This document shows positions 12,294-36,035 of a DNA stretch of 41,269 nt, one piece after another (position 1 is the first letter of the stretch; each line of letters starts with the position of its first letter). A program made the position numbers and the translations under genes. The notes beneath the pieces are model-generated. The model searched no databases. It worked only from the letters and a program-made list of their open reading frames with translations, and was not told where the DNA came from. The stretch spans positions 1-41,269 of the forward strand of contig CAMBEF010000002.1 in the NCBI GenBank assembly GCA_945865495.1, given 5' to 3'. Source of the stretch: an uncultured Bacteroides sp. (GTDB lineage: Bacteria; Bacillota; Clostridia; Lachnospirales; Lachnospiraceae).

Positions 12294-14042
12294 ATGATTA
12301 AAACGCTGGCGGCACATATTAAGGAGTACAAAGCAGCTTCAATTGCGACGCCTATATTCATGATTCTTGAAGTAATCATGGAGACAGCGATTCCCGTGCT
12401 GATGGCATCAATTATTGATAAAGGTGTCGAAGCGGGCAACATGAAGCATATATATACGGTTGGTGCAATGATGGTTGCTGTCGCGGCACTTGGACTGTTA
12501 TTCGGCGTGCTTGGTGGCAAGTATGGCGCCAAGGCCTCTACAGGATTTGCAAGGAACTTAAGAAAGGCAATGTATGAGAACATACAGACATTTGCATTCT
12601 CTAATATCGATAAGTTCAGTACGGCAGGTCTTGTAACGAGACTTACAACCGATGTAACCAATGTACAGAATGCATATCAGATGATTCTGAGAATGTGTAT
12701 GAGAGCGCCGTTTTCACTTATCTGCGCGATGGTAATGGCATTTATCATTAATGCGAGACTTGCAAGCGTATATCTGATAGCAGTCATAATACTCGGCGGA
12801 GCGCTTGTGCTTATTATGAGCAGGGCAACGAAGTATTTTGGAATGGTGTTTGAAAAATACGATGACCTTAATGCAAGTGTTCAGGAGAACATATCAGCAA
12901 TCCGCGTTGTCAAGGCATATGTACGTGAGGATTATGAGAAGGATAAGTTCAAAAAGGCGAACGGCAACATTTACAATATGTTTGTAAATGCCGAGAAGAT
13001 AATTACGCTCAACGCACCTCTTATGCAGACAACGGTCTATACATGTATCCTCTGCATAAGCTGGATGGGTGCTAAGATGATCGTGGGAGGCAGCCTGACC
13101 ACAGGTGAGCTGATGAGTCTTCTTACATATTGTATGAATATCCTGATGAGCCTTATGATGCTCTCGATGGTATTTGTAATGATAACGATGAGTGCGGCAA
13201 GTGCAAGACGTATTACTGAGGTGCTTAATGAGAAAACTGATATCTGCAATCCTGAAGAGCCTGTATATGAGGTTGCTGACGGAAGCGTAAGGTTTGACCA
13301 CGTTAATTTTGCATATGGAAAGAATGCCGCAGAGCCTGTACTTAAGGATATTAACATCAGTATAAATGCAGGCGAGACGATTGGCATTATCGGCGGAACA
13401 GGAAGTGCAAAGTCAAGTCTTGTCAACCTTATAAGCCGTCTGTATGACGTTAATGGCGGTGCCGTATACGTCGGCGGAAGGGATGTAAGGGAATATGATA
13501 TCGAGACATTGAGAGATGAGGTATCGGTTGTTCTTCAGAAAAATGTCCTTTTCTCGGGTACTATTCTTGATAATCTCCGCTGGGGCAATAAGAATGCAAC
13601 GGAGGAAGAATGCAGACGTGCCTGTGAGCTTGCGTGCGCGGATGAATTTATCGAGAGATTCCCTGACGGATATAAGACATATATTGAGCAGGGCGGAAGT
13701 AACGTATCCGGCGGACAGAAGCAGAGACTCTGTATAGCAAGAGCGCTGCTTAAGAAGCCGAAGATACTTATTCTTGATGACTCTACAAGTGCTGTTGATA
13801 CGGCGACGGATGCCAAGATAAGAAGAGCATTTGCAAAAGAAATTCCCGATACTACCAAGATTATTATTGCACAGCGAATCTCAAGTGTTGAGCACTGTGA
13901 CAGAATAATTGTGCTTGATGACGGAGTGGTAAGCGGATTTGGTAATCATGATGAGCTTATGAAGTCTAATGAGATCTATCGTGATGTATATGAGTCACAG
14001 ACCGGTGGCGGCGGTGACTTTGATGAGCCGGGAAAAGTATGA
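12294..14042 (+). CDS. ABC exporter, half-transporter 1 (degenerate NBD)
   Basis: Six-TM ABC exporter fold; GGTGSAKSSL, NVSGGQKQRLCIARALL, LILDDSTSAVD, IIIAQRISSVEHCD. ATG at 12294 with GGAAG upstream; the track start at 12273 is a TTG. Confidence 0.92.
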   Translation: MIKTLAAHIKEYKAASIATPIFMILEVIMETAIPVLMASIIDKGVEAGNMKHIYTVGAMMVAVAALGLLFGVLGGKYGAKASTGFARNLRKAMYENIQTFAFSNIDKFSTAGLVTRLTTDVTNVQNAYQMILRMCMRAPFSLICAMVMAFIINARLASVYLIAVIILGGALVLIMSRATKYFGMVFEKYDDLNASVQENISAIRVVKAYVREDYEKDKFKKANGNIYNMFVNAEKIITLNAPLMQTTVYTCILCISWMGAKMIVGGSLTTGELMSLLTYCMNILMSLMMLSMVFVMITMSAASARRITEVLNEKTDICNPEEPVYEVADGSVRFDHVNFAYGKNAAEPVLKDINISINAGETIGIIGGTGSAKSSLVNLISRLYDVNGGAVYVGGRDVREYDIETLRDEVSVVLQKNVLFSGTILDNLRWGNKNATEEECRRACELACADEFIERFPDGYKTYIEQGGSNVSGGQKQRLCIARALLKKPKILILDDSTSAVDTATDAKIRRAFAKEIPDTTKIIIAQRISSVEHCDRIIVLDDGVVSGFGNHDELMKSNEIYRDVYESQTGGGGDFDEPGKV

Positions 14043-14117
14043 AAAACAGATTACAATCTGTAACAGATTGATATCTGATTTTTATACGCAAGATTTGTGC
14101 TTATGCACAAACTTGAT

Positions 14118-14294
14118 ATGCGCAAAAGGCAGCGCAGGAATGGAGAATAATGTGAAAAATCAGCCTGATATCTGATTTTTCACACAGCTATTTGTGCCGC
14201 AGGCACCACAAATAGCATCTATCGCAGAGCCAAATCTGACATTTGGCTCGCGATTCCTCCGGCACTTTGTGCCTGCGGAATGGAGAATAGTATG
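14118..14294 (+). repeat. 177-nt structured intra-operonic leader element, copy 1
   Basis: About 90% identical to 27574-27750. Hairpins TGCGC..GCGCA, TGTGAAAAATCAG..CTGATTTTTCACA, GCTATTTGTG..CACAAATAGC, GAGCCAAAT..ATTTGGCTC, ATTCCtccGGCAC..GTGCCtgcGGAAT; ends on the start codon of ABC subunit 2. Confidence 0.9.
14152..14175 (+). other. Candidate leader mini-ORF in element copy 1 (GTG AAA AAT CAG CCT GAT ATC TGA)
   Basis: GGAG at 14142-14145, 6-nt spacing to GTG, the same spacing as the real downstream start (GGAG-AATAGT-ATG). Confidence 0.4.
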
Positions 14295-16214
14295 GCAGAG
14301 AAAGTACGTGAATTCAAGGGCGGACCGGGAGCGAGAGGCCGCGGACCAAGACCAAAGGTAGCTAATCCCGGCAAGCTGTTTAAAAGAATCATGCAGTATG
14401 TCATGAGAAGATATACTGTTCATATTATAGTAGTTGTCATATGTATATTTGTCGGTGTACTTGCCAATGTTCGCGGTACACTCTTTATGCAGACGCTTAT
14501 TGATGATTATATACTCCCTATGATGGGAAGTGCAGACCCTGACTTTGGACCGCTTCTTGCTGCAATGGCAAGAGTAGCCGTGTTCTATGCGATAGGTGCG
14601 CTGTCGACATGGGTTTACAGCAGAATCATGGTTAATGTTACACAGGGAACATTAAGAGACCTCCGTCAGGATTTGTTTTCTAACATGGAGGGACTTCCTA
14701 TAAAGTTCTTTGATACACATGCACATGGCGATATCATGTCAATATATACTAACGATATTGATACGCTCAGACAGATGATAAGCCAGAGTATGCCGCAGCT
14801 TCTTAACAGTGTAATTACGGTTGTCAGTGTATTTATAAGCATGGTAGTGCTTAATGTCCCGCTGACGGTTGTTACATTGGTTATGGTTGCAGTCACGCTT
14901 ACATCTACCAAGACGATTGCCGGAAGGAGCAGTAAGTACTTTATTGCACAGCAGAAGGAGCTTGGTAAGGTTAACGGCTATATAGAGGAAATGATGGACG
15001 GACAGAAGGTTGTCAAGGTATTCTGCCACGAAGAGGAAAGCATAGAGAACTTTAACAGACTTAATGATAAGCTCTGCGAGAGTTCATATAATGCCAACCA
15101 GTTCGCTAACATCATGGGTCCGGTAACCATGCAGATCGGTAACATAAGCTACGTTGTGTGTGCCATGGTCGGTGGTGTTCTTGCACTTAACGGCTTTGGC
15201 GGATTCACTCTTGGCGGACTTGCAAGTTTCCTTACATTTAATAAGAGTTTCAACCAGCCTATCAACCAGATGAGCCAGCAGCTTAACAGCGTTATAATGG
15301 GCCTTGCGGGTGCAGAGCGGGTATTCAGGCTGCTTGACGAGGTTCATGAAGAGGATGAGGGTAATGTAACCCTTGTAAATGCAAAGCTTGAGAATGGTGT
15401 TCTTACCGAGACTGACGAGAGAACTGAGATGTGGGCATGGAAAAATATCCGTAAGGACGGAACGGAGGAGCTTGTCGAGCTTAAGGGTGATGTTGTATTT
15501 GATGATGTTGATTTTGGATATAACCCTGATAAGATAGTCCTTCACGGAGTTAATCTGTATGCGACACCGGGGCAGAAGATTGCATTTGTCGGCTCGACAG
15601 GTGCGGGAAAGACTACTATTACCAATCTTATTAACCGTTTCTATGATATTCAGGACGGTAAGATAAGATATGACGGAATAAATATAAACCACATTAAGAA
15701 GGATGACTTAAGACATTCGCTCGGAATAGTTCTTCAGGATACGCATCTGTTCACGGGAACAGTACGTGATAATATCAGATACGGAAAGCTTGAGGCAACT
15801 GACGATGAAGTTATTGCAGCAGCAAAGCTTGCCAATGCGGACAGCTTTATCAGAAAGCTTCCTGACGGCTACGACACTGTGCTTAAGGGTGACGGAGCTA
15901 ACTTGAGTCAGGGACAGAGACAGCTTCTTGCCATTGCAAGAGCCGCGATAGCAGACCCGCCGGCACTCATACTTGACGAGGCGACAAGCTCGATTGATAC
16001 AAGAACAGAGCAAATCGTACAGGACGGAATGGATAAGCTTATGAAGGGCAGAACAACATTTGTAATTGCCCACAGACTTTCAACAGTGCGTAACTCAGAC
16101 TGCATCATGGTGCTTGAGAACGGACGGATAATAGAACGTGGTAATCATGACCAGCTCATGGAGCTTAAGGGAAGATATTACCAGCTGTATACGGGAGGAC
16201 TGGCAGCCAGCTGA
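14292..16214 (+). CDS. ABC exporter, half-transporter 2 (canonical NBD)
   Basis: FVGSTGAGKTTI, NLSQGQRQLLAIARA, ALILDEATSSID, FVIAHRLSTV; start ATG 14292 preceded by GGAG. Confidence 0.93.
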   Translation: MAEKVREFKGGPGARGRGPRPKVANPGKLFKRIMQYVMRRYTVHIIVVVICIFVGVLANVRGTLFMQTLIDDYILPMMGSADPDFGPLLAAMARVAVFYAIGALSTWVYSRIMVNVTQGTLRDLRQDLFSNMEGLPIKFFDTHAHGDIMSIYTNDIDTLRQMISQSMPQLLNSVITVVSVFISMVVLNVPLTVVTLVMVAVTLTSTKTIAGRSSKYFIAQQKELGKVNGYIEEMMDGQKVVKVFCHEEESIENFNRLNDKLCESSYNANQFANIMGPVTMQIGNISYVVCAMVGGVLALNGFGGFTLGGLASFLTFNKSFNQPINQMSQQLNSVIMGLAGAERVFRLLDEVHEEDEGNVTLVNAKLENGVLTETDERTEMWAWKNIRKDGTEELVELKGDVVFDDVDFGYNPDKIVLHGVNLYATPGQKIAFVGSTGAGKTTITNLINRFYDIQDGKIRYDGININHIKKDDLRHSLGIVLQDTHLFTGTVRDNIRYGKLEATDDEVIAAAKLANADSFIRKLPDGYDTVLKGDGANLSQGQRQLLAIARAAIADPPALILDEATSSIDTRTEQIVQDGMDKLMKGRTTFVIAHRLSTVRNSDCIMVLENGRIIERGNHDQLMELKGRYYQLYTGGLAAS

Positions 16215-16235
16215 TTGCGTGGCGGCATAAAGGAC

Positions 16236-16310
16236 GCCGCAGCAGATATATGTGGGGACGCCTCAATGTTTTACTTAACTTCGGCGTACCCCACATATAT
16301 CTGCTGCGGC
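16236..16310. other. Long hairpin A with conserved loop core
   Basis: 22-nt perfect arms GCCGCAGCAGATATATGTGGGG / CCCCACATATATCTGCTGCGGC plus ACGCC/GGCGT; loop TCAATGTTTTACTTAACTTC. Confidence 0.9.
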
Positions 16311-16394
16311 TGTTTTATTGCGTAGCGACAATTAATCTAAGCTCTACACAGCGCATCGCAAAAGTATGACGCAGCGAATGGAATAGAGATTATA

Positions 16395-16460
16395 ATATAA
16401 ATACAGGGAGATAATCCGAAGGTAAGTAAAACGTTGAGGATTATCTCCCTGTATTTATAT
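16395..16460. other. Long hairpin B with the same loop core in inverse orientation
   Basis: 23-nt perfect arms ATATAAATACAGGGAGATAATCC / GGATTATCTCCCTGTATTTATAT; loop GAAGGTAAGTAAAACGTTGA. Confidence 0.9.
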
Positions 16461-16492
16461 GGTATTCTGCCGAATCGTCCGATACTCTGCGA

Positions 16493-17830
16493 TTACGCTG
16501 CCTTATCTATTACCTTTATCTGACTCCATTTGCCACTGATAAATCTTGCGGTAAAGCATATTCCACGTACAAACCAGTCACATGCCATGCCTATCCAGAC
16601 GGCAATCGGGCCGAAGCCGAATACGCGGCAGAGGATTGTAACTATAAGAACACGGCAGGTCCACATTGTGATTGACGATACAATCATTGAGAATTTAACG
16701 TCACCGGCGGCACGCATTCCGTATGCAAGACTGAATGAAAATACCCATGGAATAGGCTTTATTATTGATACGAAGGTAGACATTTCTATAAACATCCGCG
16801 TACTCTCAGGTGTCATGTTACCAAGCACTGCAAGCGGTCTTGTTGCAAAATATGTGAGGGCGCATGAGATGATAAGTGCAACCTCGGCGTATTTGGCAAG
16901 CTTTATTATGTAGCGCTTTGCCTCGTCAGGTCTGCCGGCACCCATGCACTGGCCGACGATGGTTATTGTGCCGAGACCTATGCCGATTGCGGCCATACTG
17001 TTGAAGGATTCAAGAATCGTCTGCATGGCGTTGGCGGCAATGGCATCCGTTCCGAGTGTAGATACGGTAGACTGGATTGCAAGCTTACCGAACTGAAACA
17101 TTCCGTTTTCAATACCGGTAGGTATTCCGACACTTAAGATGGTGCCGATAAGAGCCCATTGAGGACGCACTGACGAGTAATTATTGATGACAATCTCCTG
17201 CTTGGGCTTACGAAGACTGTAAAGTACGACAACGGCACAGAAAGCACGTGAAACAAGTGTTGGAATTGCGACACCCTCAACGCCGCAATGCAGTCCGAAT
17301 ATAAGGATTGCGTTACCCACTACATTTACAACATTGGCAACCATTGAGATTGTCATTGGATATTTGGAATTGCCGCATGCGCGGTAAAGTGCCGCACCTG
17401 CATTGTAGAGCGCGATAAAAGGATACGAAAATGCCGTTATTACAAGATAAGTAAGTGCATTAGTCATGATTGCCGGCTCAACGCTTCCGAATATTAATGA
17501 AAGCAGCGGTCTCCTTAATATTACTGCAAATGCTGTAATTATCAGTGAGATTGCAAGCACTGCAAGTAAAAGCTGCTGGCCGGATTCGTTGGCTTTTTTG
17601 TGGTTGCGGCTTCCGATGTACTGTGAGCATACTATCGCTCCGCCTGTTGCAAGTGCTGAGAATACCTGTATGATAAGTGTGTTTATCGAATCTACAAGCG
17701 ATACCGCTGATATTGCAGTTGGGCCTACGGTACTGACCATAAGTGAGTCCATCATGCCCATGACGGAATTAAGAATCTGTTCTATTATGAGCGGTATGAT
17801 TAATTTGAAAATATCCTTATTGCTGAACAT
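16493..17830 (-). CDS. MATE family efflux transporter
   Basis: 445 aa, 12-TM pattern; IPLIIEQILNSVMGMMDSLMVSTVGPTAISAVSLVDSINTLI, ALYRACGNSKYPM, GIPTGIENGMFQFGKL. Confidence 0.92.
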   Translation of the reverse strand: MFSNKDIFKLIIPLIIEQILNSVMGMMDSLMVSTVGPTAISAVSLVDSINTLIIQVFSALATGGAIVCSQYIGSRNHKKANESGQQLLLAVLAISLIITAFAVILRRPLLSLIFGSVEPAIMTNALTYLVITAFSYPFIALYNAGAALYRACGNSKYPMTISMVANVVNVVGNAILIFGLHCGVEGVAIPTLVSRAFCAVVVLYSLRKPKQEIVINNYSSVRPQWALIGTILSVGIPTGIENGMFQFGKLAIQSTVSTLGTDAIAANAMQTILESFNSMAAIGIGLGTITIVGQCMGAGRPDEAKRYIIKLAKYAEVALIISCALTYFATRPLAVLGNMTPESTRMFIEMSTFVSIIKPIPWVFSFSLAYGMRAAGDVKFSMIVSSITMWTCRVLIVTILCRVFGFGPIAVWIGMACDWFVRGICFTARFISGKWSQIKVIDKAA

Positions 17831-20975: not shown

Positions 20976-21512
20976 ATGAAAAGAAAAATGTTATCGGCAA
21001 TGGCATGTGCGTGTGCAATGATCATTATGACAGGCTGCGGTGTGGCTAAAGGAAATGGCAGTGAAGGTGATAATGTGGAGAATAACGTCAGTACAGCACA
21101 GGTTACAGCTTCAATGGCGGCGCAGACAACAGCAGGAGTGCAGGGCAGCACGGTAAACGCAGTGTCAAAGCAGCAGACAACGGAAGCGTCATCAGAGCTT
21201 GTGATGTATGTTACAACGGCAGAGAGAAGCCTTAAGGTGCTCGGTGGATATACAATGGATAACGGAAGTAAGAAGGAAGTAACAAAGCAGCCGCTTGCAG
21301 ACGGATGTACTTTCTATAATAATAACGGAGAGCAGATTGCGTATAAGGATTTTGCAGATGCTGTAGAGGCACAGGCTTCGGGCGCCGGTGTTGAATGTAA
21401 GGTACAGTATGAGGGTAAGCAGATTATTAAGGTTTCAATACTCGACAAGGCTGTTAATACAGGTGCGTCAGGAGAGATTCCTTCGACACTTTATCAGCAT
21501 ATGGGAAAATAA
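20976..21512 (+). CDS. Small secreted lipoprotein, function unknown
   Basis: Signal peptide plus lipobox MTGCG; TAGGAGG RBS. Confidence 0.75.
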   Translation: MKRKMLSAMACACAMIIMTGCGVAKGNGSEGDNVENNVSTAQVTASMAAQTTAGVQGSTVNAVSKQQTTEASSELVMYVTTAERSLKVLGGYTMDNGSKKEVTKQPLADGCTFYNNNGEQIAYKDFADAVEAQASGAGVECKVQYEGKQIIKVSILDKAVNTGASGEIPSTLYQHMGK

Positions 21513-21624
21513 GCATATAAGCATTTTTTAATTAAAAACAGCATTTGAAGTATATTTTAGGTTGCGCCGTTACATTATTTACAGACACAGATACAGTGAT
21601 GTAGATAAAGGGATGGTGGCGCAT

Positions 21625-22794
21625 ATGAAAAAAATATATTTTCTTATAATAGTTATAACCGTGTGTATTATTGCAGGACAGAACAGGCACGGATATGAAT
21701 ATGTACAAAAAGAACCTGCGGCGAGTGAGGCGTATACGGTTAATACTGGGGAGACGTATATTGTGAGCCCTGAGGAAACAAATGCAGTGAGCACTGAAGA
21801 GATGTATACAGTGAATGCTGAAGAATCATATATTGCAGAGCAGCAGTCCCAAAGGAAGATATCCTGCTGGGGTGACAGCATGATGGAAGGGTACGGAAGC
21901 AGCGAGGCATATGTGATGACGAACAGTGGAACAGTAGACATAAGCTATTACACTGCACCGATGGCGCTTGAGGCACTGACAGGGCTTAAAACATATAATT
22001 TCGGAGTGAGCGGCGAGACATCAGAGGAGATTGCGGTCAGAGCCGGTGGAATAACATTATATACGGACAGAAACATTTACATAAGCAGTAAGAAAAGCAC
22101 AACCGCAGTGCTTGTTGATGGCAGCGGACAGGCTGTTATGATGAGTGATTTCAGCGGATATGGCAGTGAAGATAATGATATGCCTGATACATGCTATATT
22201 AACGGAAGGCTGTGCCGGGTAACTCAGGTGAGGAACTCGCAGAGGGTAAGGATACAGCTCTGTGATGAGGGTGACGGCAGCGGATACATGTTTGTGCCAA
22301 AGGGTACTGCTGTTATTCCGAAAGCTGCGGTTGGCCATTCGGATGATATAATGATTCTTGAGATGGGAAGCAACGGAGGCTGGTACGGAGATTACAGCCT
22401 TCTTGTGGAGCAATACAGACAGATTATTGATAACAGTGGATGCACGGACTATATAATTGTTGGGGATACAGATAACCCCGGAGAATCGCTTGCTGATGTA
22501 ATGCAGACGCAGTATAATTCAGACGGGACATATGTAGGCACAGGCGATACTATGTGGGAGGCTGCACTTAGGGAAGCATTTGGAGAGCATTTCCTTAATA
22601 TGAGAGTGTATATGCTTGAAAATGGGCTTGCTGACTGTGGACTTGAACAGGCACCTTCTGATGCGGCTGCATATGAGATGGGCTATATACCGGAGCAGCT
22701 TAGAAGCGATTGGACGCATTTTAACTCATACGGATATTACGCCAAGGGAATGGGAATATATCTTAAGGGCGTGGAATTGGGGTATTGGCAATGA
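21625..22794 (+). CDS. Secreted/membrane-anchored SGNH/GDSL-like hydrolase
   Basis: N-terminal TM; ISCWGDSMMEGYGSS (GDS block I), EMGSNGGW (GxN-like), SDWTHFNSYGYYAKG (DxxH block V). Confidence 0.8.
   Translation: MKKIYFLIIVITVCIIAGQNRHGYEYVQKEPAASEAYTVNTGETYIVSPEETNAVSTEEMYTVNAEESYIAEQQSQRKISCWGDSMMEGYGSSEAYVMTNSGTVDISYYTAPMALEALTGLKTYNFGVSGETSEEIAVRAGGITLYTDRNIYISSKKSTTAVLVDGSGQAVMMSDFSGYGSEDNDMPDTCYINGRLCRVTQVRNSQRVRIQLCDEGDGSGYMFVPKGTAVIPKAAVGHSDDIMILEMGSNGGWYGDYSLLVEQYRQIIDNSGCTDYIIVGDTDNPGESLADVMQTQYNSDGTYVGTGDTMWEAALREAFGEHFLNMRVYMLENGLADCGLEQAPSDAAAYEMGYIPEQLRSDWTHFNSYGYYAKGMGIYLKGVELGYWQ
21730..21825 (+). repeat. 24-nt (8-aa) degenerate tandem repeat in the SGNH protein linker
   Basis: AYTVNTGE / TYIVSPEE / TNAVSTEE / MYTVNAEE (then SYIAEQQS). 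Confidence 0.7.
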
Positions 22795-23462
22795 GAATAT
22801 TACTTGCGGAGGATGATACATCACTTGCGAGGGCAGTGGCAACAATCCTCAAAAAAAATAATTATTCGGTTGATGCAGTTGGTGACGGAGAGGCAGTGCT
22901 TGAATATCTTGAGGCCAAGATATATGATGCTGTCATACTCGATATTATGATGCCTAAGATGGACGGAATTACTGCACTTAAGAAGATAAGACAGAGCGGT
23001 AATATGATACCTGTGCTGCTGCTTACGGCAAAAACGGAGATAGAGGATAAGGTAGAAGGACTTGATACGGGTGCCAATGACTACCTTACGAAGCCGTTTG
23101 ACACAAGGGAGCTTCTTGCAAGGCTGCGTGTTATAACGAGGACAGTGACACAGCAGGACTCATCCGTACATGCAGGTAATCTTAAGCTTGACACCAATAC
23201 ATGTATTCTGTCATCGCCTAAGGGAAGCTACCAGCTTTCCAATAAGGAATACCAGATGATGAAGATGTTTATGTCGAATGTCAATCAGGTTATTTCGGCA
23301 GAACATTTTATGGAAAAAATATGGGAGAGCGATTCTGATTCAGAGCTTAATACGGTGTGGACATACATATCGTATCTCAGACGCAAGATGGAAGCACTTG
23401 AAGCGGATTGTAAGATAGCAACTAGAAGAAATCTTGGATATTGTCTGGAGGTTAATCAATGA
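22791..23462 (+). CDS. OmpR-family response regulator 1
   Basis: MRILLAEDDTSLARAV, DAVILDIMMPKMDG, LLTAKTEIEDKVEGLDTGANDYLTKPF plus winged-helix C-terminus. ATGA overlap with the preceding stop. Confidence 0.93.
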   Translation: MRILLAEDDTSLARAVATILKKNNYSVDAVGDGEAVLEYLEAKIYDAVILDIMMPKMDGITALKKIRQSGNMIPVLLLTAKTEIEDKVEGLDTGANDYLTKPFDTRELLARLRVITRTVTQQDSSVHAGNLKLDTNTCILSSPKGSYQLSNKEYQMMKMFMSNVNQVISAEHFMEKIWESDSDSELNTVWTYISYLRRKMEALEADCKIATRRNLGYCLEVNQ

Positions 23463-24667
23463 AAATAAAGATGCGCAACAGGATTAATGACAGAATGATG
23501 TTTAAGATAAGGATGAGATTTGTGCTGGCAGCAATGTCAGCACTTATTGTTATGCAGGCAGTAATCATATTTTTCAGTGTATATAATTCGTATAGCAGAA
23601 TGGTGGCAAAATCGGATTCGGTCATAGCGGCTGCGTATGAGGGAATAAAGTCGGGTGCAGATAATATTGATGCAGACGGACGTTTTTTCTGGGTCAGTAC
23701 AGATAAGACAGGCAGGGTTACCGATATAAATACAACTTATAACAGCTCGGTAAAGCCAAAGGCGGCAGCAAGGTACTACAGGGATGTTATTAACAGCGGT
23801 AAGGAAAATGGATTCTACGAAGGCTACAGGTATGCAATATATGAGTCTGACGGAATGACAACGGGAGTGTTTCTTCTTAGGAGCGCCAATATAGACATGC
23901 TCAGGAAAAATGCGGTTTCAATGGTGCTTATATCAGCATCGGGGCTTGGTATAATGCTGATTATACTGATATTTGCGTCGGGAATAATTGTAAAGCCTAT
24001 GGAACGCGGATATCAGAAGCAGAAGGAATTCATCACATCCGCAAGCCATGAGCTTAAGACACCGCTTACGGTTATTATGGCGGATACCGATATTCTTCAG
24101 ATGGATGATGAAGATAATGAGTGGGTTCACGATATAAGAGTGCAGGCAGACAGGCTTACGGGAATGACGAACAGCCTTGTAAGCCTGGCGAGGCTTGATG
24201 AACGCGGAGAAAATATAAACAGGATTGAGTTTCCTATATCTGATGTTGCGCAGGATATAGCAGGCTCCTACAAGGCGATGGCGATAAGCTGCAACAAGGA
24301 ATTTGTATGTGATATAACTCCGGAGCTGTCATTTAACGGTGATGAAAATGGAATACGGCAGCTATTTACTATACTGCTTGACAATGCGTTTAAATATTGC
24401 AGTGACAACGGAAGGATAGAGCTTGAACTGAAGAAAAACGGCAGTGCCATAAAGATATGCGTGCGTAATAATGTGCCTTCGGCTGCCGATATAAATACTG
24501 ACAGGATGTTTGACAGGTTCTACAGGGCTGATGCAACGGCAGCCGCTGTTAAGGGCTATGGGCTCGGACTGTCAATTGCAGCCTCAATAGCTGCCGCACA
24601 CAGAGGCAGTATGAGGGCTTATGCCGAGGGAGACAATGTGATAGCAGTTGAGGCGGTTGTTAAATAA
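23459..24667 (+). CDS. Sensor histidine kinase 1
   Basis: Two TMs; SASHELKTPLTVIMADTDIL H-box; DNAFKYCSDNGRIEL N-box; GYGLGLSIAASIAAAH. ATGA overlap with RR1. Confidence 0.92.
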   Translation: MKIKMRNRINDRMMFKIRMRFVLAAMSALIVMQAVIIFFSVYNSYSRMVAKSDSVIAAAYEGIKSGADNIDADGRFFWVSTDKTGRVTDINTTYNSSVKPKAAARYYRDVINSGKENGFYEGYRYAIYESDGMTTGVFLLRSANIDMLRKNAVSMVLISASGLGIMLIILIFASGIIVKPMERGYQKQKEFITSASHELKTPLTVIMADTDILQMDDEDNEWVHDIRVQADRLTGMTNSLVSLARLDERGENINRIEFPISDVAQDIAGSYKAMAISCNKEFVCDITPELSFNGDENGIRQLFTILLDNAFKYCSDNGRIELELKKNGSAIKICVRNNVPSAADINTDRMFDRFYRADATAAAVKGYGLGLSIAASIAAAHRGSMRAYAEGDNVIAVEAVVK

Positions 24668-24719
24668 TGGATTTTAAGCTTAAGATATCGTTAAATATGA
24701 TCAGGTATGGAGGATTATA

Positions 24720-26882: not shown

Positions 26883-27572
26883 ATGAACAACATAATGACA
26901 TTTAAAAGGCGCGAAATAAAATACCTTCTGGATGACGATGTGTATAACAGTCTGAAGGAGCGTCTGAAGGCAAGGCTTGTTGAGGATGAGCATGGCAGGT
27001 CTACGATATGCAACATTTATTATGATACTCCCGATTTCAGGATTATAAGGAAATCTCTTGAAAAGCCTGTGTACAAGGAGAAACTCAGGCTGAGAAGCTA
27101 TGGGACGGCAGGAGCGGAGGATAAGGTTTTTGTTGAACTTAAAAAGAAGTACAACGGAATCGTATATAAGAGGCGTGAAACGCTGACGCTCGCACAATCT
27201 GATGAATATCTTGCAGGTCACACGAAGGCACCTTGCGATACACAGATTTTCCGCGAGATAGACTGGTTCAGGGATTACTATGAGAATCTGAAGCCGGCGA
27301 TGTACATTTCATATGAGCGCGAGGCATACTATTCGCTTGAAAATCCGGATCTGAGGATTACATTTGACCAGAATATTATGTACCGCTCATATAACTTAAG
27401 CCTTGCGGCAGGAGTTGAAGGTGAGAAAATACTTGAACCGGGGCAGCATCTTATGGAGCTTAAGGCCGGCGGAGCAATTCCGGTGTGGCTTACAAGAACG
27501 CTTGATGAGCTGGGGATATACCCTACATCATTTTCAAAGTACGGAAGAGCGTACTTAAGTCAGGTAGGTTGA
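26883..27572 (+). CDS. VTC-domain polyphosphate polymerase-like protein
   Basis: FKRREIKYLLDDDVY, YYDTPDFRIIRKSLEKPVYKEKLRLRSYG, VFVELKKKYNGIVYKRRETL, YEREAYYS, LRITFDQNI, HLMELKAGG, FSKYGRAY: conserved basic/acidic tunnel motifs of the VTC family. Confidence 0.87.
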   Translation: MNNIMTFKRREIKYLLDDDVYNSLKERLKARLVEDEHGRSTICNIYYDTPDFRIIRKSLEKPVYKEKLRLRSYGTAGAEDKVFVELKKKYNGIVYKRRETLTLAQSDEYLAGHTKAPCDTQIFREIDWFRDYYENLKPAMYISYEREAYYSLENPDLRITFDQNIMYRSYNLSLAAGVEGEKILEPGQHLMELKAGGAIPVWLTRTLDELGIYPTSFSKYGRAYLSQVG

Positions 27573-27573
27573 G

Positions 27574-27750
27574 ATGCGCAAAAGGTAGCGCAGAAATGGA
27601 GGATAGTGTGAAAAATACAGATTGATATCTGTTTTTCACACAGCTATTTGTGCCGCAGGCGCCACAAATAGCATTTATCGCAGAGCCAAATCTGACATTT
27701 GGCTCGCGATTCCTCCGGCACTTTGTGCCTGCGGAATGGAGATTAATATG
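27574..27750 (+). repeat. 177-nt structured intra-operonic leader element, copy 2
   Basis: Same length and hairpin order as 14118-14294; ends on the ATG of the DUF4956 gene; starts 1 nt after the VTC stop codon. Confidence 0.9.
27608..27625 (+). other. Candidate leader mini-ORF in element copy 2 (GTG AAA AAT ACA GAT TGA)
   Basis: GGAGG at 27598-27602; GGAG-to-GTG spacing is 6 nt, as in copy 1. Confidence 0.4.
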
Positions 27751-28434
27751 ACAACAATTTTTCAATCAATAGCAGATACAACAACAGGAACAGTTACGAT
27801 TCAGACATTTTTAATATGCATAATAGCAGCGGTAGCGCTTGGCGTGGTGATAGCCGCAGCGCACATGTACCGCAACACATACACAAAAAGCTTTGTGGGA
27901 ACGCTGGTGCTTATGCCTGCAATAGTGGCACTTGTGATTATGCTTGTAAATGGCAATCTCGGCGCAGGAGTTGCGGTTATGGGTGCATTTTCACTTGTTA
28001 GGTTCCGTTCGGTGCCGGGAACAGCGCGTGAGATTAACAGCATTTTCCTTGCAATGGCAGTAGGTCTTGCCTGCGGAATGGGCTACATCGGAGTAGCAGT
28101 GGTATTTGTGATTATTATGGAGCTTGTAAATGTTATTCTCACACTCAGCAGCTTTGGCGACAGACCTGAGCTTGAGAGAAGCTTAAGAATAACAATTCCG
28201 GAATCACTTGATTACACAGATGTATTTGAAGAGATATTTGATAAGTATGTTACAAAATGCGAGCTTGTAAATGTTAAGACTTCAAGCATGGGAAGTCTGT
28301 TCAAGCTTGAATACCGAATCAGGCTTAAGGATTCGGGAACAGAGAAGGATATGATTGATGAACTGAGATGCCGCAACGGTAATCTTGAGATTATGTGTAG
28401 CAGGGCGGCCAATCAGGCAAGGGAGGAATTATAA
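27748..28434 (+). CDS. DUF4956-family membrane protein
   Basis: TMs followed by GNLGAGVAVMGAFSLVRFRSVPGTAREINSIFLAMAVGLACGMGYIG, typical of DUF4956 proteins next to VTC genes. True start 27748; the track start at 27622 lies inside the repeat. Confidence 0.85.
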   Translation: MTTIFQSIADTTTGTVTIQTFLICIIAAVALGVVIAAAHMYRNTYTKSFVGTLVLMPAIVALVIMLVNGNLGAGVAVMGAFSLVRFRSVPGTAREINSIFLAMAVGLACGMGYIGVAVVFVIIMELVNVILTLSSFGDRPELERSLRITIPESLDYTDVFEEIFDKYVTKCELVNVKTSSMGSLFKLEYRIRLKDSGTEKDMIDELRCRNGNLEIMCSRAANQAREEL

Positions 28435-30314
28435 TGAGAAAGATATTTGTAAATAAAAATGCAGCCGCAGCGGTTGTCATGTCAGGTGCGCTTGTCATGA
28501 CAACACTTGCAGGCTGCGGACAGACAGGCACTACAGGAAGTGCCTCGGATACTTCTTCAAACGGCGCATACATTACAACGGCTGTATCGGAAAATCAGAA
28601 GAAGATAGAGCTTACAGATTCCAAGGTTGATATCAATTTTACCGACAGGGACAAAAGCGGCGAATATGATGAAAACAGCGCGGTAAAGATTACACTTAAC
28701 GGCAACAGTGCCGGTGTAAGCGGCAGCGGAGTAAGCGGCAGCGGAGTAAGCATAAGCGGAAGTACGGTAACAATTACGGCAGCGGGAACATATATTATAA
28801 GCGGCTCTCTTAGTGACGGACAGATTGTTGTTGCGGCATCAGATTCAGACAAGGTTCAGCTTGTACTTAATAATGCTGAGATTAATTGCAGTACAAGTGC
28901 CGCAATATATGTAAAGAGTGCGGATAAGGTATTTGTAACACTTCCGGCAGGCACAACAAGCAGCCTTGGAGGTGGCACTGAGTATATCCAGACAGATGAT
29001 AATACGGTTGACGGCGTAATATTCAGCAAGAGTGATCTCACGCTTAACGGAACAGGTACTCTTAAGATTGATGCCGATTACAAGCATGGAATAGTGACAA
29101 AAGATACACTGTGCATAACCGGAGGAACATATGTAATTGATGCTGTTAAGACATGTCTTGCAGGCAAGGACGGAATTAAGATACTAGATGGCAGCTTTAC
29201 TCTCACGGCAGGCAACAAGGGTCTTAACTCAGGCAACGATGACGATGCCAAGGAAGGCAATATATATATTGCCGGAGGAGCATTTACAATTAAGTCAGAG
29301 GATGATTCAATACATGCGGACGGAAGCTGCATAATCGCCGGAGGAACATACACAATAGACGCGGGAGATGACGGAATCCATGCGGATTACGATACTATAA
29401 TCACAGACGGCAACATAACAATCACGGACAGCTATGAGGGAATTGAAGGACGCAGGGTTACTGTAAGCGGAGGCACAATTAATCTTACGGCAAGTGATGA
29501 CGGAATAAATGCAGCCACAGGCGGAAGCTCAGATGAACAGCAGATGCCGGGCGGACAGAAGGGCGATTTTGGCGGATTTGGCAGACAGAAGGGGGCTGGC
29601 GGACAGTCACAGGATGGACAGCAGCCACAGGAAATGCAGGCACCGCAGGACGGACAGCAGCCACAGGAAATGCAGGCACCACAGGACGGACAGCAGCCAC
29701 AGGAAATGCAGATGCCGCAGGACGGACAACAGCCATCAGGAATGGACATGGGCAATAAGGGTCAGGCACCGGGAAGCCAGTCTGCATCCGATGATGATGT
29801 ATATATAAAGATTACAAGCGGAACAATAACGGTCAATGCAAGCGGTGACGGCATTGATTCAAACGGCAATCTCTATATTACAGGTGGAACAGTATATGTT
29901 GCAGGCCCGACAAGTAACGGTGACGGTGCGCTTGATTATGACGGAGAGGCCTCAATTACAGGCGGAACACTCATAGCGGCAGGCTCAAGCGGAATGGCTC
30001 AGGGCATGGGAAGCAATTCAACGCAGTGCTCAATACTTGTCAATCTTTCAGAGACAATAGCAGCAGGCTCAGTTATAAGTCTTAAGGATTCATCAGGAAA
30101 CGTGCTGATATCATGGACATCACCTAAGCAGTTCTCAAGCGTTGTGATAAGTACGGCAGAACTTGTTCAGGGCAGCACATATACACTTGTGACAGGAGAT
30201 ACACAGACAGAGGTAACACTCAGTTCGGTTGCAACAACAAGCGGCAATGCTGGATTTGGCGGCGGCTTTGGAGGTGCCGGCGGACGCGGCGGCAATGGAG
30301 GCGGCAGACGTTAA
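28434..30314 (+). CDS. Lipoprotein with beta-helix-like carbohydrate-binding domain (DUF4353-like)
   Basis: Lipobox LAGCG; repeated GGTYTIDAGDDGIHADYDTII / GGTINLTASDDGINA patterns; Gly-rich C-terminus. TAATG overlap with the DUF4956 stop. Confidence 0.8.
   Translation: MRKIFVNKNAAAAVVMSGALVMTTLAGCGQTGTTGSASDTSSNGAYITTAVSENQKKIELTDSKVDINFTDRDKSGEYDENSAVKITLNGNSAGVSGSGVSGSGVSISGSTVTITAAGTYIISGSLSDGQIVVAASDSDKVQLVLNNAEINCSTSAAIYVKSADKVFVTLPAGTTSSLGGGTEYIQTDDNTVDGVIFSKSDLTLNGTGTLKIDADYKHGIVTKDTLCITGGTYVIDAVKTCLAGKDGIKILDGSFTLTAGNKGLNSGNDDDAKEGNIYIAGGAFTIKSEDDSIHADGSCIIAGGTYTIDAGDDGIHADYDTIITDGNITITDSYEGIEGRRVTVSGGTINLTASDDGINAATGGSSDEQQMPGGQKGDFGGFGRQKGAGGQSQDGQQPQEMQAPQDGQQPQEMQAPQDGQQPQEMQMPQDGQQPSGMDMGNKGQAPGSQSASDDDVYIKITSGTITVNASGDGIDSNGNLYITGGTVYVAGPTSNGDGALDYDGEASITGGTLIAAGSSGMAQGMGSNSTQCSILVNLSETIAAGSVISLKDSSGNVLISWTSPKQFSSVVISTAELVQGSTYTLVTGDTQTEVTLSSVATTSGNAGFGGGFGGAGGRGGNGGGRR
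28716..28760 (+). repeat. 15-nt tandem repeat (VSGSG) x3
   Basis: gtaagcggcagcgga x2 then gtaagcataagcgga. Confidence 0.85.
29610..29735 (+). repeat. 36-nt in-frame tandem repeat (QDGQQPQEMQAP), three full copies plus one partial
   Basis: Units begin at 29610, 29646, 29682 and 29718 with very few differences. Confidence 0.92.
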
Positions 30315-30341
30315 TGCCGTCAGGCAGGAATATAGAAGCAG

Positions 30342-30374
30342 AAAGCTCTATCCTCAATGGATAGAGCTTTTTTT
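30342..30374. terminator. Bidirectional terminator between the lipoprotein and AraC genes
   Basis: AAAGCTCTATCC TCAAT GGATAGAGCTTT TTTT; overlaps the last codons of the minus-strand AraC gene. Confidence 0.8.
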
Positions 30375-31193
30375 GCGGTACTGTAGAGGAGACTCTCCTG
30401 TTATTCTCCGGAAACAGTCACTGAAGTAGCTGCTGCTGGAGAAGCCGGCTTCTGCTGCGATGTCAGATATCTTCATATTAGAGCCGGTCAGCAGTATGCG
30501 TGCATATGCAATCTTCTCATTCAGAAGAAAGACAGAGTATGGCGAGTGGAGGCAGTTGATAAATGCCTTTGAAAGATGTGACGGCGAGACGTTCACGGCT
30601 GCGGCGGTCTCTCCAAGGGAGGGGTTATCACGCAGATTGGCTTTGACATATTTTATTGCGTCAGCAAGCTCGCGGTGGCGTTCTTCAATATTCATCAGAT
30701 TAAACCCACCAACAGTATGCTCGCGCAGTACGGTTATGATAAGTTCGTTGAGCATTCCCTTAATGAGAAGCTCGGAATAATTATTATAATGCTTCCATTC
30801 GTCCTCAATCCTCATAAGTATTGAGTAAACCTTTTTTCCGGTCTCATTGCCAAGGCGGATAACATGCTCGGAGCATAATGCATCAAAGCTGCTTTGTCCA
30901 ATAGTGCTGATAAGCCCGTCAATCATACTGTCATTAAACTTCAGCAGTATGCGCTCATATGAAGAATCTGACACATAGGTAGTGCGGCGGTATAGATGCT
31001 TAGGTATAAATACAATATCACCTGCCTGCGTTATCGTTGTAAATGTTGGTGTATATATAAGTCTTTCGCCGCTTATCATATACGAAATCCCATAAAAATC
31101 AGTGTATTCCTCAGCGGATGACATCTCATAAAAAGGTTCGCGGATCTGCCTGTCATAATTGAAATTATATCCGGGCTTTAGCGGAAGTGGCAT
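30354..31193 (-). CDS. AraC-family transcriptional regulator
   Basis: N-terminal cupin-like region; C-terminal LGETAAAVNVSPSHLSKAFINCLH...ISDIAAEAGFSSSSYFSDCFRRITGESPLQYRK. Confidence 0.92.
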   Translation of the reverse strand: MPLPLKPGYNFNYDRQIREPFYEMSSAEEYTDFYGISYMISGERLIYTPTFTTITQAGDIVFIPKHLYRRTTYVSDSSYERILLKFNDSMIDGLISTIGQSSFDALCSEHVIRLGNETGKKVYSILMRIEDEWKHYNNYSELLIKGMLNELIITVLREHTVGGFNLMNIEERHRELADAIKYVKANLRDNPSLGETAAAVNVSPSHLSKAFINCLHSPYSVFLLNEKIAYARILLTGSNMKISDIAAEAGFSSSSYFSDCFRRITGESPLQYRKKSSIH

Positions 31194-31384
31194 AGCGTAC
31201 TCCTTCCTGAATGATATGTTATGGAAATGTGCTGCAAAACTGAAAAATCAGCTATAAATAATTATATCACACCCACTGCCTGAAATCTAAAAAAATGCAA
31301 TAAAGCAGACTGAACTATGAAGAAAAAATGCAGACCGTTGTGTTATAATAAAACAAAATATTGTGCGAAAGGAAATACACACCT

Positions 31385-32332
31385 ATGGGGAACAACGGAA
31401 GATACATGGCAGGAAAGATTCTGGAGGAAGTAGGCAAGGCTGTGTGCGGCAAGGAAGACAGTCTTGAACTGATAATGAATGCGATAATTGCGGGAGGACA
31501 TGTTCTCATTGAAGATATTCCCGGTGTCGGTAAGACAACGGTTGCGGTAGCATTTGCAAAGGCAATGCGGCTTGACTATAACAGAGTGCAGTTCACACCT
31601 GATATACTGCCTTCGGATATTATGGGATTTTCAATGTATGACAGGGAACATTCACAGTTTGTATATCAGCCCGGAGCAGCAATGTGCAACGTATTTCTTG
31701 CGGATGAGATTAACAGAACATCATCAAGGACACAGGCGGCGCTTCTTGAGGTAATGGAAGAGGGAACGGTAACTGTTGACGGCAATACGAGAGAAGTTCC
31801 GAAGCCGTTTTTTGTAATGGCAACAGAGAACCCGGTAGGCTCGGCGGGAACACAGATACTTCCCGAATCACAGCTTGACAGATTCATGGTATGCATGTCG
31901 ATGGGATATCCCGATGCAGCCAGTGAGATAAATATACTCAAGGGCAATACAGGACGTAATGCGATAGATATGGTTGAGGCTGTTGCCAACGGTGATGATA
32001 TAGAGCTTATGCAGAGGGAGGCATCGCAGATATTTGTTAAGGATGCACTTTATCAGTATATGGTGAGACTTTGCAGTGCTACAAGAAAGCATCCAAAGAT
32101 AGAGCTTGGAGTAAGTCCGCGAGGAAGCATAGCATTATGCAAAATGGCAAAGGCAAGGGCATACATGAGAGGCAGGGAATATCTGATACCTGAGGATGTA
32201 AAGAGTGTTGCAGTTCCTGTGCTGTCACACAGAATAATTATGACAGGTAATGCAAGAATGGAAGGCCTTACTTCAGAGAAGCTGGTGAAGAGTCTGCTTG
32301 TGTCTGTGCCGGCACCTTCAATCAACAAATAA
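31385..32332 (+). CDS. MoxR-family AAA+ ATPase
   Basis: GGHVLIEDIPGVGKTTVAVAFAKAM, FTPDILPSDIMGFSMYD, VFLADEINRTSSRTQAALLEVMEE, MATENPVGSAGTQILPESQLDRFM. Confidence 0.94.
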   Translation: MGNNGRYMAGKILEEVGKAVCGKEDSLELIMNAIIAGGHVLIEDIPGVGKTTVAVAFAKAMRLDYNRVQFTPDILPSDIMGFSMYDREHSQFVYQPGAAMCNVFLADEINRTSSRTQAALLEVMEEGTVTVDGNTREVPKPFFVMATENPVGSAGTQILPESQLDRFMVCMSMGYPDAASEINILKGNTGRNAIDMVEAVANGDDIELMQREASQIFVKDALYQYMVRLCSATRKHPKIELGVSPRGSIALCKMAKARAYMRGREYLIPEDVKSVAVPVLSHRIIMTGNARMEGLTSEKLVKSLLVSVPAPSINK

Positions 32333-32351
32333 GATAATAACGGAGGTTAGC

Positions 32352-33545
32352 ATGACCAAGAGATTAGCAGCTTACATAATTCTCCTTGCGTCTGTTGTAT
32401 ACATGTCACTTCTGTATGAAGGCGAGGCAATGACATTTCTGATTGCATTCGGAATATTGCTGCCGGTAATAATGGCTGTGATTGTCATAATACAGAAGAA
32501 AGACATAGAAATTGAATATCTCTCAGGACGTAACATAGTCGGCAAATCAGATATCGTTGAGATTGAAGCTCTGGTAAAATACAAAATAATGCCGCTACAG
32601 CTTCTTCTTCCGGTACACAGAATAAGCGTAGGCGGAAAGTGCATATGTACGGACAAATCTGAGAAAAAGCTGTCGGTGTCATTTGAAAAGCAGGAGAACG
32701 AACAGTATGCAGAGACGTATAAAAATGAGCGACAGATATTGAGCCTTACGGATGTGACAGCGCATTACGGAGTGGTAAAGATAGAGCTCAACAGGGTAAA
32801 GATGTATGATTATATGTCACTTTTTGCAATAGGTCTTCCGTTCAGATATTCCGGCGAGGTGTTCGTATTTCCACAGGACAGACCATTAACCATAGATATA
32901 CGGAGTCTTAAATCAAATAACGGCGTAAGAATAGATAACATTTGTATAGAGAGCAAGGGACGTTCACAGGAGAGCATTAATGACCCGCGTGAATATCGCC
33001 CGGGAGATCCGATGAAGAGGATTCACTGGAAGGTAAGCGCCCGGATTGACAAGCTTATGGTGAAGGAATATGCGGGACTTATGTCCTCTAATATACTTCT
33101 GCTGATTGACGGAATGCCGAAAGCTCCGCGTGCGGAATATATCAAAAACGGCATGGCGAGCAGGAGTATGTTGGGAAAAATCATAACCAATAAAAGAAAA
33201 GCTGCCAATACAACAGGCAGTGAAGAGTTTAACAGCAAAAAAGATAAATGGATTGAGAATGTATTTCTTATCAGCAGCGCACTTGACACGCAGTTTGGTG
33301 TATATCATATCGGCTGGATGCAGGACGGCGTCTTTTCGGATTATAAGATAGAGAGCCGGCGCGATTATTCGGATGCTATGCAGACATTTATACGTGCGCA
33401 GCAGGACAGAAAGATAGGCAGGCTTGATAAGAAAGACGGAAGTGCTATGCGCGCAAATATATATGGCAGATATACAACGGTGCTGGAATTCACGCCGGAC
33501 GGAGTTGTCCGTGTAGAGGGTGAAGAGCTTACAGGCCTTGCATAA
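32352..33545 (+). CDS. DUF58 domain-containing protein
   Basis: Two N-terminal TMs; DPREYRPGDPMKRIHWKVSARIDKLMVKEY signature; CGGAGG RBS. Confidence 0.92.
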   Translation: MTKRLAAYIILLASVVYMSLLYEGEAMTFLIAFGILLPVIMAVIVIIQKKDIEIEYLSGRNIVGKSDIVEIEALVKYKIMPLQLLLPVHRISVGGKCICTDKSEKKLSVSFEKQENEQYAETYKNERQILSLTDVTAHYGVVKIELNRVKMYDYMSLFAIGLPFRYSGEVFVFPQDRPLTIDIRSLKSNNGVRIDNICIESKGRSQESINDPREYRPGDPMKRIHWKVSARIDKLMVKEYAGLMSSNILLLIDGMPKAPRAEYIKNGMASRSMLGKIITNKRKAANTTGSEEFNSKKDKWIENVFLISSALDTQFGVYHIGWMQDGVFSDYKIESRRDYSDAMQTFIRAQQDRKIGRLDKKDGSAMRANIYGRYTTVLEFTPDGVVRVEGEELTGLA

Positions 33546-33566
33546 TATCAGCGGAATGGGGATTCA

Positions 33567-35996
33567 ATGAAGAAAAACGGAAGCCTTGGAAGGTATGCAC
33601 ATTGGGGAAGCTGGCTTGTCCTTACGGCATGTGCGTGCGCAGTGTCAGTCGGACTTGAGCGGTTTGTGGTGTTTCTGACAAAAGCATATTGCAGTAAGAT
33701 AATAATGGATTGCGCAAGCATAATAACGGTTGTCATACTTGCGTTTATATTTAATCTGATGAGAGCATTTATTGTAAGCAGGGAAAAAAGTGTCCGCAGA
33801 TACACAATGCCGGTAATTGCACTTCTGTTTGTATTGTGGGTATTGGCGGTATGGTATCTGTTCCGGGCTGATTGCAGTAATTTTCTGGATGCATCTGTTC
33901 AGGAAATTGTTCCTGTAATAAACAGTTATTATCATGTGCATATACTATATAAGACCGTAAGCGGAATAGGCTATATGAGTCAGACAATAGGTGCGCTTGT
34001 ACTGCTTGCACCGATTTATGCGGTAATTACATGGGAGATAATAATGAAGCTTAAGTCAGCAGTTTCATTGGCGGTATTTGGAATATTGTTTGCTGCGTCA
34101 CTTATGCTCGGACTTGTTCCGGATATTCTTCCGGTTGCCTGTATGCTTGTCGGCGCGATTGCCGTAATACCTGCATCACAGGGAAGAACGAAGGGGGCAT
34201 ATGAGGCTGCAATACTTGGCGGTATAGCTGTTGTTGCTGCTGTTATTGCACATTCGGCAGGTACTCCTATGGTAAATGAGGCCATGAAGACAACGGAGGA
34301 TACCAAGGTGAAGGTTGCTTCATTCTGGAATGACGGAGGCGGCAGCAGATGGAGCATTGACAATCTTTTTCCGTCACTTGCGTCAGGAGGTGTCAACGGA
34401 GGACAGCTTGGAAAGATTGCCGGCTTTACATACACGGATAAGACCTATCTTGAGATTAAGGTAAATATAAAGCCGGAGGGTCCGGTATATATGAGAGCAT
34501 TTATCGGCGGTGATTATACAGGGGACAGTTGGACAACTGCTGATGAAAGCCGTGAGCATGATGCAGACAGGATTGCGCATGCTGCATATGAGCAGATTTA
34601 CAGATACAGACGTGATTCTATAGGTGAAAGCAATATGGAGGTAAGCCGTGTAAGGGCATCAGACCAATATGTGTACAGACCATATGCGGTTGCGGAGGAT
34701 ACATATCCTGCGGCATCACAAACGCAGTATTCGTATACATTTTATCAGAACAGATGGCCTCTGGGAGTGTATTATACTGGAGCGCTGAATGATACTTCGA
34801 TGTCACAGCAGGAGAAAAGCTATCGCAATTATGTGTACAATACATTTACAAATGTGCCTTCAATAGGGCTGGATACGCTTAAGGATGAATGCCGCCGTGC
34901 CAATACGGGAAGCTTTGAACTGGCATATAAGTTCATTGTGACAAGGCTTCAGCAATGTACATACAATATGGATGTTGGCGTAACACCGGAAGATGCGGAC
35001 TTCATTAATTATTTTCTTTATGACAGACATGAGGGTTACTGTACACATTTTGCATCTGCGGCAGCAATAATGTTCAGAATGGCAGGCTATCCTGCACGCT
35101 ATGTGACAGGATATGTTGTTGACAGGGATGCATTTAACGAAACAGGATATAATGAATATACTGCGGAAGTGAAAGACCGTAAGGCTCATGCGTGGACGGA
35201 GGTCTATCTTGACGGAACCGGCTGGGTTGTTGTTGATGCGACACCGGGATATGTGAATAACAATTATGCAACGGTATACAGTATAACATCATCAAAGGCG
35301 GTGGCTTCCAATGTGTCAGCGGGAAACACTGAGCAGCAGACAGCCTCAGGTAATGGCGGTACAGACGGTGCCGGAAGAACAGGAGCGGATGGGACGGATT
35401 CATCTGACGGTGCAGATTCCGGTGACGCAAGTACAACGGATGGCAATGGAACAAATAACGGCGGCAATGGGGCATCCGGCATCAATACAGACGGCGGGCA
35501 GAGCATTGGCGGACTTGTAATTCCTGCTCCGGTAATGAAGGTGATAAAAGCGGTATTGCTGCTTCTGGCGGTCTGCATTGCAATATTTGTGGCTGTGGCA
35601 GCAATAATGGCACTGATATATGCAGTGATGCGCACTATTGTCACACGAGGGCTCAGGCTTCCTGCACGCGGAGATTATAACAGCATAGTTGAGAAAAAAT
35701 TTCATTGGCTGTATAATATTGCTTTAAGCGCAGGATTACCGGATAATATTAATTCAGCAGGTGCAAGGTTCATCAATATGTTCACGGAGCATTTTGAGAA
35801 TATTGACAGGTCAGCATATAAAGCGGTAATTGATATAGTAAGGCGTGCCAATTATTCGGATGATAAGATATCCAGGGCAGAAGCCGATAAGGTGCTGCAA
35901 TGCTGCAAAAAGATGCTTATACATGAGGAACGCAGGCTGTCGCCTGTTCAACGCTGGAAATTATATTTTAATATATTATCAGGGCGCGGCAGATAG
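33567..35996 (+). CDS. Transglutaminase-like membrane protein (TgpA/DUF3488-type architecture)
   Basis: N-terminal TMs; GYCTHFASAAAIMFRMAGYPARYVTGYVV ... KAHAWTEVYLDGTGWVVVDATPG (Cys-His-Asp); G/D/T-rich linker; C-terminal TM. Confidence 0.92.
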   Translation: MKKNGSLGRYAHWGSWLVLTACACAVSVGLERFVVFLTKAYCSKIIMDCASIITVVILAFIFNLMRAFIVSREKSVRRYTMPVIALLFVLWVLAVWYLFRADCSNFLDASVQEIVPVINSYYHVHILYKTVSGIGYMSQTIGALVLLAPIYAVITWEIIMKLKSAVSLAVFGILFAASLMLGLVPDILPVACMLVGAIAVIPASQGRTKGAYEAAILGGIAVVAAVIAHSAGTPMVNEAMKTTEDTKVKVASFWNDGGGSRWSIDNLFPSLASGGVNGGQLGKIAGFTYTDKTYLEIKVNIKPEGPVYMRAFIGGDYTGDSWTTADESREHDADRIAHAAYEQIYRYRRDSIGESNMEVSRVRASDQYVYRPYAVAEDTYPAASQTQYSYTFYQNRWPLGVYYTGALNDTSMSQQEKSYRNYVYNTFTNVPSIGLDTLKDECRRANTGSFELAYKFIVTRLQQCTYNMDVGVTPEDADFINYFLYDRHEGYCTHFASAAAIMFRMAGYPARYVTGYVVDRDAFNETGYNEYTAEVKDRKAHAWTEVYLDGTGWVVVDATPGYVNNNYATVYSITSSKAVASNVSAGNTEQQTASGNGGTDGAGRTGADGTDSSDGADSGDASTTDGNGTNNGGNGASGINTDGGQSIGGLVIPAPVMKVIKAVLLLLAVCIAIFVAVAAIMALIYAVMRTIVTRGLRLPARGDYNSIVEKKFHWLYNIALSAGLPDNINSAGARFINMFTEHFENIDRSAYKAVIDIVRRANYSDDKISRAEADKVLQCCKKMLIHEERRLSPVQRWKLYFNILSGRGR

Positions 35997-36035
35997 ATAA
36001 AAATTGCAAAATTATGGAATCAATGGAGGTTAATT

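Follow-up and report, generated by a model that had tools for sequence, protein, structure and literature searches.

In Clostridia, DNA inversion by tyrosine recombinases at short inverted repeats is a well-known process (PMC5903667; PMC2784873). A 2025 survey linked one group of invertible elements, inverton group 139, to tyrosine integrase group 35; 32 of 33 come from Clostridia, and in one example repeats of 26 bp are separated by about 230 bp (PMC11892184). Here we describe a locus within a 41,269-nt stretch of DNA (hereafter the window; contig CAMBEF010000002.1 of assembly GCA_945865495.1, a Lachnospiraceae genome deposited as an uncultured Bacteroides sp. and termed G000 below), in which two long hairpins present a shared loop in opposite orientations and enclose a fragment of a tyrosine integrase gene. 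With moderate confidence, we interpret this block as a solo tyrosine-integrase inversion unit that has shrunk to a remnant.

Two hairpins share an inverted core

The paired inverted hairpins at 16236–16460 are real and consist of perfect stems of 22 and 23 bp that are mutually unrelated. In hairpin A (16236–16310), the 22-nt 5′ arm (16236–16257, plus strand) is 100% complementary to the 3′ arm (16289–16310, plus strand), and a 5-bp inner helix, ACGCC/GGCGT (16258–16262 and 16283–16287), extends the 22-bp stem with a single bulged A at 16288. Hairpin B is read in minus-strand sense: its 23-nt 5′ arm (16438–16460) pairs perfectly with its 3′ arm (16395–16417), and the 23 pairs enclose a loop of 20 nt. 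The fold z-scores are −10.9 for hairpin A and −7.5 for hairpin B, and no shuffled sequence was equally stable.

Core A, CCTCAATGTTTTACTTAACTTCGG (16261–16284, plus strand), and core B, CCTCAACGTTTTACTTACCTTCGG (16416–16439, minus strand), are identical at 22 of 24 positions in inverted orientation, where zero such matches are expected in shuffled windows. The mismatches, at positions 7 and 18, occupy mirror positions of the core, the internal dyad symmetry of which is weak. Both hairpins have the same CC/GG closing pairs and the same loop on stems without anything in common: the 20-nt arms adjoining the cores agree at 8 of 20 positions in an ungapped comparison, which amounts to no clear similarity. 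The long perfect hairpins, the inverted core match and the dissimilarity of the stems, all claimed in a preliminary description of this DNA, are thereby confirmed.

An adjacent inverted hairpin pair with a common loop is unique to the window among 1.7 Mb of sequence examined, setting aside matches of short AT-rich 8-mers and the sites of integrase units. A terminator scan called none at either stem; hairpin A is followed by TGTTTTATT and hairpin B by TATAATCT, both of which are imperfect T tracts. At gathering score, the Rfam covariance models gave no match to the hairpins and a single tRNA elsewhere in the window; the sub-threshold matches at the hairpins, mostly to microRNA models, were spurious. 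A further perfect hairpin of 20 bp with a 20-nt loop is present at 38723–38782; its stem and loop, unlike those of hairpins A and B, are largely conserved in the closest congener, G001 (L037, 15359–15416).

The block lies between convergent transporter genes

Both hairpins are contained in a block of about 280 bp (16215–16492) that fills the interval between two convergent genes, from stop codon to stop codon. They lie at the 3′ ends of these genes, a type of context that the preliminary description had raised and that the gene positions bear out. A 644-aa open reading frame (14280–16214, plus strand), assigned to the ABC transporters from its sequence motifs, reads into hairpin A, and a 445-aa open reading frame (16493–17830, minus strand), a putative MATE-type efflux protein judging by its sequence, reads into hairpin B. 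In G001, the ABC and MATE genes abut: approximately 276 bp of the block are missing in the alignment, and the flanking DNA is about 95% identical on both sides. The MATE orthologue in G001 shares 98% amino acid identity, with a C terminus that differs by two codons at the junction. The G000 lineage may have gained the block, rather than G001 having lost it. Two similar short sequences, GCGTAATCGC and CGCAATCAGC (minus strand), one at either end of the block, are by eye like the single G001 site and might represent a decayed target duplication.

The convergent gene ends of G001 (L009, near 2825–2850), where there is no block, contain GGCTGCC...GGCAGCC, a possible shared terminator hairpin within the coding ends. 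Elsewhere in the window, two segments of about 3.2 and 5.5 kb (21472–24707 and 30217–36045) are largely missing in the otherwise collinear G001 region. The window also holds two copies of a dispersed intergenic repeat with internal palindromes (14031–14300 and 27569–27753; 92% alike); the 14031–14300 copy is absent at that position in G001, and copies or partial copies occur elsewhere in G000 and G001 (L039, L046, L063, L068 and L072).

An integrase gene remnant separates the cores

The spacer between the cores contains a 51-bp piece of a tyrosine integrase gene corresponding to the catalytic R-box, FHSLRHTFAMRCVEL (16334–16384, minus strand), which shows 84% DNA identity to an integrase open reading frame of G212 (E 6e-9) and 81% to the integrase gene of G225. 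An nhmmer search with a profile of six integrases picks exactly this interval in the window (E 3e-11). Beyond G212, the remnant is matched in G225, G571, G604, G634 and G666, and DNA identity is 78–81% in four genomes from a different family within the same order. The full-length proteins that match the remnant are tyrosine integrases (Pfam PF00589 with PF14659); translations of the block gave no Pfam match, being too short. An intact integrase of the remnant's family was not found in the G000 assembly, which is 88% complete. Both the strand of the remnant and the side on which it lies fit hairpin A as the downstream site; relative to the remnant, core A is the proposed right-hand recombination site and core B the proposed left-hand one.

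The block might instead comprise two ordinary long intrinsic terminators, with a shared loop that is not a recognition site and that arose, while the integrase gene decayed, by inverted duplication or template switching at the locus. We regard this as a serious but rather unlikely explanation. Strong folds and a location where two convergent genes end are consistent with it, and long perfect hairpins are common in G000 (about nine with a score of at least 17 in the ~440 kb examined). Read in frame with the remnant and on its strand, core A gives ...KLSKTLRR, and a 34-nt stretch that includes core A aligns at 23 of 31 positions to the box-III region of the integrases when six sequences are used (1 of 300 shuffles); on these two grounds the core could be integrase coding sequence. 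With 26 integrases, however, support for the match falls (15 of 200 shuffles) and the core taken alone does not reach significance; the coding assignment, suggestive with six sequences, was set aside. A single duplication, moreover, does not give the same closing pairs and loop on unrelated stems, and the U tracts are imperfect, with no canonical terminator called at the stems.

Many related integrases are bounded by inverted lox-like sites

In about 14 of the 26 analysable loci of related integrases, two inverted copies of one site flank the gene, counting any inverted pair with a score of at least 15; in the control, made up of random genome segments of the same geometry rather than other integrase genes, 0 of 120 had an inverted pair of that score. 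The consensus site is lox-like and 27 bp long, TTTCGYAGA-N9-TCTRCGAAA. Its 9-bp arms are similar across genomes, and its 9-nt spacer differs between loci and is common to the two sites of a pair. Such bounded solo integrases are found at L094, L095, L097, L146, L147, L150, L157, L158, L160, L165, L171, L172 and others, and the gene in intact relatives has approximately 320–490 codons. Given identical sites in inverted orientation around its gene, the enzyme would be able to flip the segment between them. A pattern scan located the consensus site in 25 of 200 genomes, and nearby site pairs are always inverted, either about 1.0–1.45 kb apart with an integrase inside or 180–430 bp apart without one. 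The TTTCGYAGA pairs are probably elements of the same kind as inverton group 139, to which we liken them by description and not by motif (PMC11892184).

The window core does not match this consensus, no consensus site was found in G000 (allowing at most one mismatch) or in G002, and no intact relative carrying the window core was found in the genomes searched. Because the core departs from the consensus and no cognate integrase was found intact, we do not claim membership in the consensus-site family; the likeness of the window to the solo-integrase units is architectural. As in those units, two near-identical inverted sequences bound the candidate unit, here the 24-nt cores with 22 of 24 positions in common.

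The G212 integrase (L144), which is closest in DNA sequence to the remnant, lacks flanking consensus sites, and no inverted pair around it passes the test. A perfect hairpin of 15 bp lies on each side of it, with unrelated stems, TTTTATACTATTTTC and ATTTTGAGGCTGTTA, and with TAAAAAGT common to both loops in direct orientation. These loops were considered as homologues of the window core and set aside (p ~0.12, not significant).

Shrunken derivatives and sites within local stems

The short inverted site pairs without an intact integrase occur in G204 (C20, C24 and C30), G031 (C81 and C122), G027 (C7) and G014 (C5), each with its own 9-nt spacer, and are candidate invertons. On contig 15 of G031 (L191, 702–1075), two inverted sites 347 bp apart enclose a C-terminal integrase remnant, that is, the 3′ end of the gene. 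L191 derives from the full-length unit L160, on contig 34 of G031, by a clean internal deletion, to the left and right of which the two copies are about 95% identical. The order of its parts, with a site, an integrase remnant and an inverted site, is the one seen in the window block. Other short pairs matching a wider integrase profile were left uncounted, because this profile includes downstream site sequence.

Four of 72 sites in relatives (L183, L178, L094 and L095) have 9–10 of 12 outer positions paired, the criterion being at least 9, a level reached by 0.4% of combinations in a null in which the flanks of different sites were combined; the outer flanks of the remaining sites are mostly unpaired. 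A constant recombination site in a locus-specific stem thus exists among the relatives. The outer stems there measure 8–12 bp, versus 22–23 bp in the window, where the arrangement is more extreme in that both sites are so enclosed. We found no description of sites placed in terminator-like stems in the open-licence papers searched.

It is improbable that the block is a functional inverton, in which flipping of the 131-bp segment would swap the inner arms and so disable the two convergent terminators at once. When the segment was inverted through the cores in silico, the folding energy rose from −58.2 to −13.0 kcal/mol for hairpin A and from −34.7 to about −10 kcal/mol for hairpin B, values no better than those of shuffles; since both hairpins are removed, a two-terminator switch is conceivable. 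The spacing of the pair is, in addition, near that of the short integrase-less pairs in relatives and near that of the published Clostridia inverton, with its ~26-bp repeats ~230 bp apart (PMC11892184). However, no integrase of the relevant family was found in the 88%-complete assembly, and the cores differ by two mismatches. Sites in the loops of two terminators would constitute an all-or-none phase switch of transcription termination, not of a promoter, and we consider this doubtful to the same degree. If flipping does persist, termination of both genes would switch together, as phase-variable termination.

The core is confined to one locus of the assembly

In G000 (88% complete, 280 contigs), the core occurs only twice, as cores A and B, allowing up to three mismatches; a further copy may lie in the missing part of the genome. 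Matches to the 20-nt loop in 97 relatives were not above control, the 24-nt core had zero matches in 175 relatives of G212, and across several hundred related genomes the core was not above chance. A covariance model of hairpins A and B yielded no convincing third member among 61 relatives and 397 family genomes, and BLAST of phages and plasmids returned weak chance matches only. Several individual candidates were examined and rejected. A weak covariance-model match in G266 (E 0.017) has a loop with an inner helix and is at chance level for the number of genomes searched. A core-like match in G230 is without arms, an upstream reading frame seems by eye to cross it, and about 0.3 such matches are expected by chance. 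Public collections gave four genome and five viral core matches, all chance-like and without arms, and a coding-degenerate core pattern had 46 unrelated matches in viral contigs.

Without other copies of the core or above-chance matches in relatives, the hairpin pair is one locus and not a genome-wide constant-loop family. Nor does it behave as a dispersed repeat of the REP/MITE type, as the assembly holds a single locus and not multiple copies. The preliminary description had taken the loop to be the recognised part, presented by a variable stem. As a general family of variable stems and constant loops, this proposal fails: no further copy of the core turned up in the assembly or in the relatives searched, and the public-collection matches lack arms and are chance-like. 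The description had itself named absence of the core elsewhere as evidence against such a family, and the genome search for the core returned just the two known copies. Its suggestion of a recombinase, by contrast, fits the context, with an integrase remnant between the cores and with related solo integrases flanked by inverted identical sites, sometimes in locus-specific stems. The indel relative to G001, the integrase fragment in the spacer and the uniqueness of the core in the assembly had gone unremarked in the description.

The loops have the same sense sequence in the transcript of each gene, and one RNA-binding protein or small RNA could in principle bind this common loop and coregulate the two efflux mRNAs. 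We judge such an RNA-level element to be very unlikely: no Rfam family is matched other than spuriously below threshold, the core is missing from all other genes and relatives searched, and G001 keeps both genes without the block. Perfect palindromes are a known signature of chimeras, and with 280 contigs and 88% completeness this is a fragmented assembly, but an assembly or library artefact generated by fold-back is equally remote, as two different palindromes, one inverted core and a diverged integrase fragment cannot come from a single fold-back and both flanking genes are intact.

A probable remnant of a solo-integrase inversion unit

We favour, on balance, the interpretation of the block as what is left of a solo tyrosine-integrase inversion unit. 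The ancestral unit would have consisted of an integrase gene between two identical inverted recombination sites, and was presumably active. The integrase gene would then have been almost wholly lost, leaving the 51-bp catalytic piece and the two inverted 24-bp cores, which are probably the inverted recombination sites of the former unit. The unrelated perfect stems would be locus-specific arms grown around each site, and would now read as long hairpins resembling terminators where the two convergent genes end. The hairpins are probably now long terminators of the ABC and MATE genes, and the block may now only end transcription.

On this interpretation, the case shows a solo integrase inversion unit shrinking to a MITE-like inverted site pair and then serving as the terminators of its neighbours. 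It also points to a class that is common in this bacterial family and little described, that of tyrosine integrases bounded by inverted lox-like sites, which includes integrase-deleted derivatives and sites embedded in locus-specific stems.

Comparison with known systems

Inverton group 139 (PMC11892184) resembles the TTTCGYAGA pairs in its short inverted repeats, its association with a tyrosine integrase and its occurrence in Clostridia. The sites of the window, by contrast, differ in sequence from the TTTCGYAGA pairs, sit in long unrelated stems and are accompanied by an integrase scrap only. The RecV switches of C. difficile, such as cwpV (PMC5903667; PMC2784873), are comparable in that a tyrosine recombinase acts on inverted repeats in a clostridial host, but there one recombinase serves several switches, and the sites and the hairpin arrangement are unlike those of the window.

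Bidirectional intrinsic terminators of convergent genes have the location and the strong hairpins of the window; the shared inverted loop, the unrelated stems, the 20-nt loops and the imperfect T tracts set the window apart. Hin of Salmonella is a serine recombinase that operates a promoter switch and, unlike the window, involves no long hairpins. The likeness to the Hin segment (named in PMC5903667) lies in a recombinase gene inside a segment bounded by inverted sites.

The solo integrase units (L094, L095, L097, L146, L147, L150, L171 and others) differ from the window in having an intact gene and 27-bp palindromic sites with conserved 9-bp arms. Like them, the window has integrase sequence, here a 51-bp remnant, between near-identical inverted sequences, and in some of these relatives (L094, L095, L178 and L183) the sites lie, as the cores do in the window, inside locus-specific outer stems.
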